Shown here: in pieces, positions 3,867 to 62,374 of the stretch
Position numbering within the stretch: position 1 is the first letter of the stretch
Layout: every line of letters starts with the position of its first letter
NCBI GenBank assembly: GCA_947625495.1
Contig: CANQOQ010000005.1
Span: 1 to 64,000, forward strand
DNA length: 64,000 nt
Source: Candidatus Gastranaerophilales bacterium
GTDB lineage: Bacteria; Cyanobacteriota; Vampirovibrionia; Gastranaerophilales; Gastranaerophilaceae
Direction: 5' to 3'
The notes under the pieces: model-generated
Databases searched by the model: none
Seen by the model: the letters and a program-made list of their open reading frames with translations, nothing else
What the model was told of the DNA's origin: nothing
Made by a program: the position numbers and the translations under genes

Positions 3867-4241
3867 ATGAATATTAATCGTGAAAATATTAAATTCTCTA
3901 TTGTGGACAAAGCAAGTCTGAATAAATCAAATCAAGGAAAATCTTCCGAAATGTATCATTTGGAAATAAAAATTTCAAGAGAATTGTTCAAAAATTTTTT
4001 TATATTCAAAAATAAAAGGATAATTCTGCTAAATCAAAATGCAATTAATATGACACCCAGAGAAATAGAAGTATTGAATTACATGGCAAAAGGCAGAAAT
4101 AACAAGGAAATTGCGAATGATTTGCATGTTGCAAGAAGTACGGCTAAAGCACATGTAAGCAGCATTATCTCAAAACTGAAAGAAAAGAACAGATTATCTG
4201 CCGTTATTAAAGCAATAAAAATAAAACTTATCAAAATATAA
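3867..4241 (+). CDS. Single-domain LuxR/GerE-type HTH regulator
   Basis: A 124-aa DNA-binding protein. Residues about 60-118 form a LuxR-type helix-turn-helix: MTPREIEVLNYMAKGRNNKEI, then IANDLHVARSTAKAHVSSI and a final helix KLKEKNRLSAV. The first 60 residues show no receiver aspartate and no recognisable sensory domain, so this is not a canonical two-component regulator. A strong Shine-Dalgarno (GGGAGG, about 3850) precedes the ATG. The gene lies alone between a terminator and the MCE gene; its target is unknown. Confidence 0.85.
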   Translation: MNINRENIKFSIVDKASLNKSNQGKSSEMYHLEIKISRELFKNFFIFKNKRIILLNQNAINMTPREIEVLNYMAKGRNNKEIANDLHVARSTAKAHVSSIISKLKEKNRLSAVIKAIKIKLIKI

Positions 4242-6839: not shown

Positions 6840-6869
6840 ATCTAATTTATTAAAAATCAATATAGTATT

Positions 6870-6894
6870 GGCAAAAAAAATTTTTTCATATTTT
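6870..6894 (+). promoter_or_regulatory. Shared GGCAA...TATTTT promoter-like element (copy a)
   Basis: GGCAAAAAAAATT at 6870-6882 and TATTTT at 6889-6894, followed by AAAACTATTGAG. The copy at 23734 has the identical 13-mer, TATTTT 20 bases from its first G, and CAAACAGTTGAG. It lies 44 bases before the ATG of the HNH-like gene. See findings. Confidence 0.55.
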
Positions 6895-6913
6895 AAAACT
6901 ATTGAGGTATATT

Positions 6914-10478: not shown

Positions 10479-10491
10479 TAGTTTTTTAGAA

Positions 10492-10517
10492 GGCAATTTT
10501 TTCTGAAAATGTGTTTT
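10492..10517 (+). promoter_or_regulatory. Weak GGCAA...TGTTTT element (copy e)
   Basis: GGCAA (10492-10496) followed by a T-rich stretch and TGTTTT (10512-10517), with the same 20-base G-to-T distance as the other copies but without the A tract. It overlaps the first possible ATG (10509) of the HD-domain gene, which argues for a start further downstream. Confidence 0.3.
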
Positions 10518-10550: not shown

Positions 10551-11243
10551 TTGGTGGAAAATAGTTTAATAATTAACTCAAATAATAATTTAAATGAAGC
10601 GGAATCATCAAATCTTTTTACTTGTCCGTTTCAATTATTAAATTATTTTTGTAAACAATCCGTAGTTGATTATATGATAAAAAATAATCCGAATATAAAA
10701 AAAATACTTTTAAAAAACGGGTTAGATTATAGTGTATATTCAAAAAATATAAAAGACATTATAAATACACATTTAAAATTCACTACCAAAACGGCTCTTA
10801 AAATTGCAAGCAAGATGCAGATGCCATACTTTGACAGAAAACAACTGGAAATTGCTTGTGTTTTTCATGACTTTGGTAAGATACTAATTCCGTATGAAAT
10901 TATAAATAAAGACTGTGAATTAAATTCATCTGAAAAACAAATAATTAATTTACATGCCAGACTGGGGTTTGAACTATTAATTACAACAAAAATGGATTTA
11001 AGAATATTAAATTTAATAAAGAATCATCATGTTAATTCAGAAATCAACCACGATGTATTAGGTAAGATACTGTCTGTTGCTGATATATACTCGGCACTAA
11101 GAGAAGAAAGGGCATATAAAAATCCTTTAAATGCGGCAAGAGCCGTAGAAATCTTAGACCAAAAAGCAAAAAAAGGTGAAGTAAGTGCAGAAGTAGTGTA
11201 TGTATTAAATCAAATTGTAAATACGTCAAGCATCGCGGCATAA
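10551..11243 (+). CDS. Degenerate HD-domain (HD-GYP-like) protein
   Basis: About 230 aa. An HD phosphohydrolase core is visible: ACVFHDFGK (HD metal pair), NLHARLG, the KNHH pair, and ILSVADIYSALREERAYK, which matches the late Asp motif of HD-GYP cyclic-di-GMP phosphodiesterases. The GYP loop itself is missing: after KNHH comes VNSEINHDVL. It may therefore be inactive on c-di-GMP or act on something else. The open frame extends to ATG 10509. A start at TTG 10551, 7 bases after an AGG, is preferred because of a promoter-like element at 10492-10517. N-terminal residues are uncertain. A terminator follows. Confidence 0.72.
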   Translation: MVENSLIINSNNNLNEAESSNLFTCPFQLLNYFCKQSVVDYMIKNNPNIKKILLKNGLDYSVYSKNIKDIINTHLKFTTKTALKIASKMQMPYFDRKQLEIACVFHDFGKILIPYEIINKDCELNSSEKQIINLHARLGFELLITTKMDLRILNLIKNHHVNSEINHDVLGKILSVADIYSALREERAYKNPLNAARAVEILDQKAKKGEVSAEVVYVLNQIVNTSSIAA

Positions 11244-14558: not shown

Positions 14559-14562
14559 ATTG

Positions 14563-15678
14563 ATGAGTAAAAAGAAAATTTCAGAATTGTCTGTTGTAGG
14601 AATTTTAGATGAAGATGATAATTTAGAAGAAGAAACAACAAATGAAACATCAGGGATTATTCTTATGAATGAGTCTGAGTCAATTAGTCGTGACAGTATG
14701 GATGTTATTATGAATTCCGAAAGAAATAAAATTATCGATACTATGGAAAATGAAGATTTATTTTCTGCGGATATGGTTGAAGAAGACGACGATGATGATG
14801 AAGTTTCATTGTCTGATGCTCTTTTAACCAAAGGTGTTTCTTTTGATGATCCCGTCAGAATGTATTTAAGAGAAATCGGAAGAATTAAATTATTAACCGC
14901 CGATCAGGAAATTGACCTTGCAAAAAAGATTATTCAAGGCGGTAATGCAGGTGTCATTGCTAAAAGAAAACTTGTTCAGGCAAATTTAAGACTTGTTGTA
15001 TCAATTGCAAAAAAATATGTCGGTCGCGGTATGTTATTTTTAGATTTGATTCAAGAGGGTAATCTCGGTTTAATTAGAGCTGCCGAAAAATTTGACCATG
15101 AAAGAGGTTATAAGTTTTCTACTTACGCAACTTGGTGGATTCGTCAGGCTATAACAAGAGCTATTGCCGATCAGGCAAGAACAATCAGAATTCCTGTTCA
15201 CATGGTTGAAACTATTAATAAACTTAAAAAAGTTACAAGAAAATTAGCTCAGGAACTTTCCCGTAAACCTACGGAAGAAGAACTTGCAGTTGAAATGAAT
15301 ATTTCGGTTCCTAAATTAAGAGAAATAATAAAAGTTGCTCAAGAACCTTTATCACTGGAAACTCCTATCGGTAAAGAAGAAGATTCAAGACTTGGTGACT
15401 TTATTGAAGATAAAGATGCTGATGCTCCGGTTAAAACCGTTGCTCAGGAACTTTTAAGAGAAGATTTAGCTGAAGTATTAAGCGGATTATCTCCTCGTGA
15501 AAGAGATGTCCTTCGTTTAAGATTCGGTATGGATGACGGAAGACAGAGAACACTTGAAGAAGTCGGTCAGCTCTTTGGTGTTACTCGTGAACGTATCAGA
15601 CAAATTGAAGCTAAAGCATTAAGAAAATTAAGACATCCGAACAGAAGCAAGCGTTTAAAAGAATATATTGAAGTTTAA
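14563..15678 (+). CDS. rpoD: RNA polymerase primary sigma factor (RpoD/SigA)
   Basis: A 371-aa housekeeping sigma factor. After an acidic, variable N terminus (about 1-85) come sigma 1.2 ([17 protein letters not shown]), sigma 2 ([26 protein letters not shown] and the -10-reading [14 protein letters not shown]), sigma 3, and sigma 4 ([13 protein letters not shown] and the -35 helix [17 protein letters not shown]). ATG 14563 is chosen over the adjacent TTG 14560; GGAG at 14550-14553 suits either. It is the last gene of dgt-dnaG-rpoD and is followed by a strong terminator. Confidence 0.97.
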
Positions 15679-15686
15679 AAATATAA

Positions 15687-15713
15687 AAAAGAAGCCTTAT
15701 GGCTTCTTTTTTT
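15687..15713 (+). terminator. Intrinsic terminator after rpoD
   Basis: A 10-bp stem, AAAAGAAGCC (15687-15696) and GGCTTCTTTT (15701-15710) with a TTAT loop, followed by TTT. The next promoter-like element starts immediately after it. Confidence 0.9.
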
Positions 15714-15739
15714 AGCAAAAAAAATTATTTTTTAATTTT
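15714..15739 (+). promoter_or_regulatory. GCAAAAAAAATT...TAATTTT element (copy b)
   Basis: AGCAAAAAAAATT (15714-15726) and TAATTTT (15733-15739), with the same spacing as the other copies. It lies directly behind the rpoD terminator and 57 bases before the start of the tagged AAA+ gene. Confidence 0.45.
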
Positions 15740-15770
15740 ATCTTAATGTAAATATTAAGAGGAATATTTT

Positions 15771-17126
15771 TTGAGAATTGTCAATGTAAATAATAAAATA
15801 TCTTTTGGATATGATAAAAATCTGAATAAAGAATTAAAAATGAGATTAAAAGAATATCCCGATAAGAAATGGGCTGATACTCTTTCCTCAATGAATTCAT
15901 ATTGTAATAAACTTGAAACAGAGGTATCACAAACTCCTTCAAAAGAAAATTCTTCAAGATATAATGATTATTTAGATATGTTTTTAAATTTAAAACAAAT
16001 GCTTGCGGGTTTTGTTACTATTACATTTGATGATTTCAGATATGCGGATCGTGAATACAAGCATTATATGGATGAATATATAAAATCCGGACAGCCGGAT
16101 GATTCATGGCAAAAAGAAGTTTGTGATTCATTATCTGCTTGGACTCAGGAAACACAGATTTCTCCAACTATCCATAAAAATGAAAAATCCGAATCTGATA
16201 ATGAAAAAGAAGTTAAAGACGCTTCTATTACTCAAAAGGCAGACGGAATAAAGAAATCATTAATAGAAATATATACACCAACAAAGTCATCGCCGAGAGG
16301 TTTTGCAGATGTTGTTGGTATGGATGATTTAAAACGTGATTTATCTGAAGATATTGTTAATTATATAAAAAATCCCGAAGCAATAAAGTCTGATTATGAT
16401 GAATATGGATTAGAAGTTTCAAAAGGACTCTTATTATACGGACCGCCCGGATGCGGAAAAACTTATATTATTCAAGCACTTTCCCTTGAGGCCGATGTTC
16501 CTTTATTAATGCTTAATTTATCTAATGCAGGTTCGCATTATATTAACATGACATCAAAAAACATATATAACGCATTTCAGGAAGCATTTAAAACTGCTGA
16601 AAAAATAGGTAAACCTTGTTTACTATTTATGGATGAAATTGATACATTGGGTTTTGACAGAACTTCACGAACTGAAAATGAAGATATAAAGCAAGTAGGA
16701 ACACTTCTCCAATCTATTGATAATGCTAAGGATAAAAACATTATTGTTATTGGTGCAACTAATAAATATAATCTTCTTGATCCCGCCGTAAAAAGAAGAT
16801 TTGAAAATATGTATTTTGTTGATTTACCTTCAAAAGATAAAATAAAATCACTTCTTATTAAACATCTTTCTTCTATAGAAAAAGGTAAAAAACTTGCGGA
16901 ATCTTCCGAAAAGCTTGATATATTGGCTGATATGTTAAATGGTTATTCTAACAGTTCGGTATGTATTATTATCAAGAATGCGGCGAAATGTGCAAAAAGA
17001 CGTAGCAGGGCTGATATTGATATTGTTGATTTCCAAGAATCCATTAAAACTTCAAATCAGGAAAAACCTAATAGGAAGGACTATACTCCGGATTATATTA
17101 AAGATTTTAAGATAGGTTTTATTTAG
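15771..17126 (+). CDS. Lineage-specific AAA+ ATPase
   Basis: A 451-aa protein. The first about 175 residues match no family I recognise, but begin MRIVNVNNKISFGY, with the ISFG tag. From about 178 there is a single AAA+ module of the FtsH/p97 class: GFADVVGMDDLK, Walker A GPPGCGKT (224-231), Walker B LLFMDEID (284-291), sensor 1 GATN (328-331) and paired arginines KRRF (341-344). No FtsH zinc-protease domain and no membrane helix follow. The start is TTG 15771 behind AGAGGA. It may be an unfoldase or remodeller with an unknown adaptor domain. Its stop overlaps ftsX's stop by 4 bases. Confidence 0.82.
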   Translation: MRIVNVNNKISFGYDKNLNKELKMRLKEYPDKKWADTLSSMNSYCNKLETEVSQTPSKENSSRYNDYLDMFLNLKQMLAGFVTITFDDFRYADREYKHYMDEYIKSGQPDDSWQKEVCDSLSAWTQETQISPTIHKNEKSESDNEKEVKDASITQKADGIKKSLIEIYTPTKSSPRGFADVVGMDDLKRDLSEDIVNYIKNPEAIKSDYDEYGLEVSKGLLLYGPPGCGKTYIIQALSLEADVPLLMLNLSNAGSHYINMTSKNIYNAFQEAFKTAEKIGKPCLLFMDEIDTLGFDRTSRTENEDIKQVGTLLQSIDNAKDKNIIVIGATNKYNLLDPAVKRRFENMYFVDLPSKDKIKSLLIKHLSSIEKGKKLAESSEKLDILADMLNGYSNSSVCIIIKNAAKCAKRRSRADIDIVDFQESIKTSNQEKPNRKDYTPDYIKDFKIGFI

Positions 17127-23726: not shown

Positions 23727-23733
23727 AAAATAT

Positions 23734-23759
23734 GGCAAAAAAAATTAACTTCGTATTTT
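23734..23759 (+). promoter_or_regulatory. Shared GGCAA...TATTTT promoter-like element (copy c)
   Basis: GGCAAAAAAAATT (23734-23746) and TATTTT (23754-23759), then CAAACAGTTGAG. It is nearly the same as the 6870 copy, in the 65-base gap before the 5'-nucleotidase gene. Confidence 0.55.
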
Positions 23760-62333: not shown

Positions 62334-62338
62334 TTAAT

Positions 62339-62363
62339 GGCAAAAAATAAATTTACGTGTTTT
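62339..62363 (+). promoter_or_regulatory. GGCAAAAAATAAATT...TGTTTT element (copy d)
   Basis: GGCAAAAAATAAATT (62339-62353) and TGTTTT (62358-62363), with the same 19-base G-to-T spacing as copy a. It starts 5 bases after the stop of the SIS gene and lies 36 bases before the tagged RelA/SpoT-like gene. Confidence 0.5.
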
Positions 62364-62374
62364 GTATTTATGTT

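Follow-up and report, generated by a model that had tools for sequence, protein, structure and literature searches.

A short two-box sequence stands before five genes in a stretch of DNA from a gut bacterium, and it may be asked whether it is their promoter and, if so, what reads it. The stretch, here called the window, comprises 64,000 nucleotides (positions 1-64000 of contig C5) of a 1.88-Mb, 51-contig MAG (G000) of Candidatus Gastranaerophilales (Vampirovibrionia). Members of this order are non-photosynthetic relatives of cyanobacteria. The nearest named relatives of the proton pyrophosphatase of the window are Candidatus Gastranaerophilales MAGs, including Candidatus Avigastranaerophilus, and a search of an open library found no paper on promoters of uncultured gut Gastranaerophilales. 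Comparisons were made in a panel of 58 genomes, in which G039 belongs to another family of the order and G057 is the class-level outgroup.

The two-box element in the window

An earlier note had placed five sites at 6870, 10492, 15714, 23734 and 62339, and all are present as it described them (Table 1). The same note gave a spacing of 19-20 bases; the sites do share one spacing, but the real register is 20 nt from the C of RRCAA to TTT, exactly so in all five, the looser figure being due to an anchor on the variable T ahead of TTT. The pattern RGCAAAAW-N10..12-TRTTTT matches three times on the forward strand of the window and never on the other, while 100 dinucleotide shuffles of the window gave a mean of 0.38 matches and a maximum of 2, and never reached three. 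In the re-estimated matrix, the core reads T-R-R-C-A-A-A-W (box 1; W3 in the full consensus), then about 14 T-rich bases, then G-T-N-T-T-T-R (box 2), with nearly all copies at one spacing. Box 1 was also tried as a signal by itself and rejected: GGCAAAAAAAATT had 5 matches in the genome as compared with 6 for the reversed control, and with up to two mismatches it matched 17 times in the window where 19.6 were expected, i.e. at chance level.

Table 1. Copies of the element in the window, the genes behind them, and the neighbouring rpoD gene
Feature	Coordinates	Strand	C / TTT	Orthologs with the element	Remarks
Element before HNH-domain gene	6869..6895	+	6872 / 6892	3/4 ortholog starts	TGGCAAAAAAAATTTTTTCATATTTTA
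HNH endonuclease-like protein, 121 aa	6914..7279	+			Tag ISFSS; PF13395, PF01844
Element before HD gene	10491..10517	+	10494 / 10514	Register in L001, L006, L009	Score 8.3
HD-domain protein	10554..11243	+			Proposed start, moved from 10509; PF13487
rpoD, principal sigma factor	14560..15678	+			Upstream neighbour of AAA+ gene, outside the regulon
Element before AAA+ gene	15713..15739	+	15716 / 15736	22/24	Just past the rpoD terminator
AAA+ ATPase, 451 aa	15771..17126	+			TTG start; tag ISFGY
Element before 5'-nucleotidase gene	23733..23759	+	23736 / 23756	27/27
5'-nucleotidase/metallophosphoesterase, 505 aa	23792..25309	+			No F-x-G tag
Element before RelA/SpoT-like gene	62338..62364	+	62341 / 62361	19/28
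RelA/SpoT-like protein (label of the earlier note), 508 aa	62375..63901	+			Tag VTFSG; ATG 14 nt after TTT

The site at 10492, previously called the weaker one, does have the lowest score of the five, but it is genuine, as its register recurs before HD orthologs. The listed start of the HD open reading frame (10509) lies inside this element; therefore, the true start is probably further downstream, the GTG at 10554 being one option. The element at 62338..62364 likewise overlaps a listed GTG start, at 62357, and the RelA/SpoT-like protein behind it has no Pfam match. The AAA+ gene directly follows rpoD (14560-17126 for the pair), a terminator-like hairpin lying in the gap at 15685-15712, and the same gene order recurs in G023 (C24:51432 and 52247).

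Conservation before orthologs

The 58 genomes were searched for orthologs of the RelA/SpoT-like, 5'-nucleotidase, and AAA+ proteins, and the upstream regions of these orthologs were scored with a matrix from 14 sites, none of which came from these ortholog sets beyond the own genome. The counts for these three sets at a score of at least 9 (Table 1) leave out the own genome, and for the 5'-nucleotidase and RelA/SpoT-like sets also the nearest relative; shuffled upstream regions gave means of 4.2 for the 5'-nucleotidase, 2.9 for the AAA+ and 3.1 for the RelA/SpoT-like set. The C, the AAA next to it and the TTT are invariant in the 5'-nucleotidase and AAA+ sets, while most adjoining columns drift. 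For the HD gene, the register was seen before at least 3 of 8 orthologs, with a partial copy in L012. A longer agreement between the sites at 6870 and 23734, AAAC-N2-TTGAG after TATTTT, had also been reported; it occurs in only one of 29 5'-nucleotidase upstream regions and is therefore attributed to chance. Two further features are conserved in the leaders of the 5'-nucleotidase genes (L171-L200), and of this gene only: one base that never varies, about 10 nt past TTT, and a GG some 22 nt past TTT that is probably the ribosome site.

Distribution in genomes

The own-genome scan covered 864 kb, i.e. 46% of the assembly, as stretches, and used the re-estimated matrix after removal of three training genes. 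At a score of at least 16, eight matches were upstream in the sense orientation, as opposed to one antisense and two reversed, and 785 coding starts gave 2+1 matches on the two strands. In four unseen genomes of the same genus, 14 strong matches were sense and upstream, 3 were antisense, none was reversed, and none fell in the 867 coding starts. Those scoring at least 14 in the unseen genomes lie 33-80 nt before the start codon, mostly 44-66 nt. The earlier note would have given up the motif if it were equally frequent inside genes; this holds for box 1 alone but not for the refined matrix.

The excess is not uniform. At a loose threshold of 12, G018 has as many antisense as sense matches; a strict pattern summed over 35 same-genus genomes gave 188 matches vs 132 for the reversed control, a modest excess (simple binomial z about 3); and an initial count of consensus matches in 400 upstream regions showed little excess and was abandoned. 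In G039, the top matches precede proteins that start with MLTAKINPNLNFG, MVAPISFSG and MHIQKINQTQAFSG. No element was found in a stretch of the outgroup G057, but this genome is richer in G+C (0.41 upstream). A lipoprotein-like family (MKKILLLFTILFVSV...) without the F-x-G tag has an element-like copy 51-53 nt upstream in three genomes (L300, L309, and L265).

That AT-rich intergenic DNA produced the sites by chance is very improbable. Such a view could draw on box 1, which is not enriched by itself, and on a first held-out test of an N-terminal tag in a loose definition (p=0.31), but it is opposed by the footprints in about 80 ortholog upstream regions, measured against shuffles, and by the sense-biased enrichment in unseen genomes.

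The F-x-G/S tag and the genes behind the element

As the earlier note observed, three of the four better copies in the window precede proteins with an F-x-G/S tag (ISFSS, ISFGY, and VTFSG). After the loose definition had failed, the definition was changed and then tested on unseen genomes. With this definition, fixed before those same-genus genomes were scored, an element of score 12 or more was present at 8 of 33 tagged genes vs 27 of 529 untagged genes (p=0.00045). In the pooled genomes of the order that were examined, 19 of 36 element genes were tagged vs 80 of 1111 genes without the element (odds ratio 14); this count belongs to the 'broad' and 'strict' definitions, which were made after the matches had been seen, and therefore their p-values are descriptive. 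G025, taken by itself, showed no association of the tag with the element. The correlation is also incomplete: the 5'-nucleotidase has the element and no tag, and most tagged genes have no strong element. Another protein of the window with an MNI-type start, MNINRENIKFSIVDK (3867-4241), has no convincing element (score 9.0 at 102 nt).

Pfam domains were matched in members beyond the window, among them a phosphoglucomutase-like protein, a GGDEF/HD protein and an HD protein, as well as an ADP-ribosyltransferase exoenzyme-domain protein with an adjoining ADP-ribosylglycohydrolase on the opposite strand. Most of the remaining members have no Pfam match, and some members have only moderate element scores. 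The ADP-ribosyltransferase-domain gene (L125:664-2319, +; tag VSFKG; element score 12.8) and the hydrolase gene (L125:2321-3700, -; element score 11.5) are convergent, and the pair is possibly a modifying enzyme with its antagonist.

The element links shared expression to the unexplained tag at the N-terminus and probably switches on lineage-specific proteins together. Used as a rule, it lets the tagged gene set be found in any genome of the order, so the question of the purpose of the tagged proteins becomes approachable without a cultured strain. That the tag marks a shared destination of these proteins is a guess.

Promoter, operator, or leader RNA

Elsewhere in the genome, genes have a TA.AAT peak at 30-45 nt upstream of the start. 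Since the element distances are mostly 44-66 nt, box 2 lies where other genes have this peak. No sigma-A -10 peak was seen at the element genes and their ortholog sets, and the best sigma-A scores there are at shuffle level; the median sigma-A promoter score is 4.8 for element genes vs 6.4 for other genes (p=0.005), the latter being above shuffle level. A TA.AAT 45-90 nt upstream in the RelA/SpoT-like set falls in the conserved last part of the preceding gene. With no sigma-A -10 peak at its carriers, the element itself is most likely the promoter. Because box 2 takes the place of the missing peak and the motif is asymmetric and bound to one orientation, a promoter is favoured over an operator or a leader RNA.

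It is possible, if rather doubtful, that the element is a transcription-factor site activating (or repressing) a weak sigma-A promoter, with box 1 over the -35 and box 2 as a poor -10 or a second half-site. Some 5'-nucleotidase and RelA/SpoT-like orthologs do have a partial dyad, GCAAAAA...TTTTTGC, box 1 is partly like TTGACA, and T-N-T-T-T at 16-bp spacing could be a degenerate -10. However, conservation is poor in the right half (G 0.35 in the matrix vs C 0.76 on the left), the matches are strongly one-sided relative to the gene, as in the 14 to 3 bias given above, and the equal inverted half-sites without orientation bias that mark a palindromic operator were not found. In addition, RelA/SpoT-like genes have no room for a second promoter between element and start, and a possible regulator, a four-HTH GntR-like protein, has no full ortholog in G039 despite the strong elements of that genome.

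It is improbable that the element works at the RNA level, as a 5' leader or by enhancing translation of genes whose transcripts begin in an upstream neighbour. Several elements start a few nucleotides after the preceding stop codon, those at 62338 and 23733 no more than about 10 nt past the gene before, and the leader is AU-rich, all of which would suit such a role; against it, no conserved G pairs with the invariant C, the spacing is fixed to the base, the distance from element to start codon ranges from 36 to 62 nt, and the gene upstream of 15714 ends in the terminator-like hairpin.

The promoter reading can thus be put as follows. Box 1 would occupy the place of the -35 and box 2 that of the -10, at the 16-17 bp spacing of sigma-70 class promoters, and transcription would start a few bases past box 2, leaving short leaders, with nearly none in the RelA/SpoT-like genes. 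RNA polymerase with an alternative sigma factor would read the element directly, and the chances that the element is in this way the core promoter of a dedicated regulon are put at about even. Such a regulon calls for a two-box element of fixed spacing before a set of genes and for an alternative sigma factor conserved in the genomes concerned, and both were found. The earlier note had suggested a regulon driven by an alternative sigma factor or one activator: the shared promoter-like element and the regulon are supported by the footprints, the sense and positional enrichment, the tag association and the fact that these genes have no sigma-A promoter; either of the two may be its reader.

Comparison with known promoters

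Like sigma-70/sigma-A promoters (TTGACA-N17-TATAAT), the element has two boxes about 17 bp apart at the same position before start codons, and T..CA in box 1; TRRCAA may pass as a -35 TTGACA, with which it has the C and A in common. Unlike them, box 2 is G-T-N-T-T-T-R without the A2 and T6 of TATAAT, and its carriers have no normal sigma-A promoter while other genes do. As to sigma-54 promoters (GG-N10-GC), some copies contain TGGCA within box 1, but there is no GC 12 nt later, and PF04552, the sigma-54 DNA-binding domain, had no match in the genome, where the controls matched. The element is thus not of the sigma-54 kind.

In Bacteroidetes, sigma-ABfr promoters have TAnnTTTG at -7 and TTTG at -33 and are housekeeping promoters (PMC7366714). 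A core resembling TTTG around -7, in a gut bacterium, is common to both, but no -33 TTTG is present on the same strand of the element, which has RCAAA there with a C invariant in 5'-nucleotidase and AAA+ orthologs, and a minority of genes is served here. The group 3 factor SigF of cyanobacteria has stringent recognition, described as partly SigB-like at the -12 box (GGGTAT), and its own regulon (PMC2758279). It offers a precedent in a sister lineage for an alternative sigma factor with its own regulon, and a SigF-like gene is present in this genome, but the GGGTAT box is absent from the element.

Candidate readers

Eight sigma70_r2 genes are present in G000: one group-1, three group-2, one SigB/F-like, one FliA/WhiG-like, and two ECF genes, and the numbers in relatives are similar. 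No good copy of the element was found upstream of any sigma gene. Two sigma genes were traced one by one across genomes. The group-2 factor at C15:19322-20215, the most divergent of G000, occurs once per genome in 52 of the 58, including G039, G040, and G045; at E<=1e-60 it was not found in G029, G037, G048, G054, G055, or the outgroup G057. In comparison with RpoD, region 2.4 has MFKAI in place of ITRAI, and region 4.2 has KECIRQTE in place of RERIRQIE; both changes lie near residues through which E. coli sigma-70 touches the -10 and -35 boxes. Close relatives of the ECF factor on C16 also occur in the outgroup, which argues against a lineage-specific reader without excluding it.

The divergent, order-wide group-2 sigma factor is the best candidate for the reader, as a lead and not proof, and it is the one sigma factor that this work names for testing. 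Group-1 and group-2 sigma factors normally need an A at the second position of the -10. Against the promoter reading, box 2 has no A there (T 0.61, G 0.20, and A 0.18 in the matrix), though the candidate has retained WW in that region. A wider proposal, tentative and rather unlikely as a whole, is an order-specific promoter class in which this sigma factor, with an altered -10 preference, would control the F-x-G-tagged set of enzymes, the ADP-ribosyltransferase-domain protein with its hydrolase neighbour and many proteins of no known function, for which the tag may mark a common destination.

The tandem four-HTH GntR-like protein (G000:C5:81600-82709, L089) is single-copy, has about 380 aa and, by eye, contains four HTH units of the GntR type. 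Matches to it were found in 51 of the 58 genomes, none of them the class-level outgroup. As the strong elements of G039 occur without a full ortholog, the protein was rejected as a necessary regulator and is the less likely reader. Upstream of its gene in three other genomes, ATARCAAAA is followed by TATAAT 22 nt after the C.
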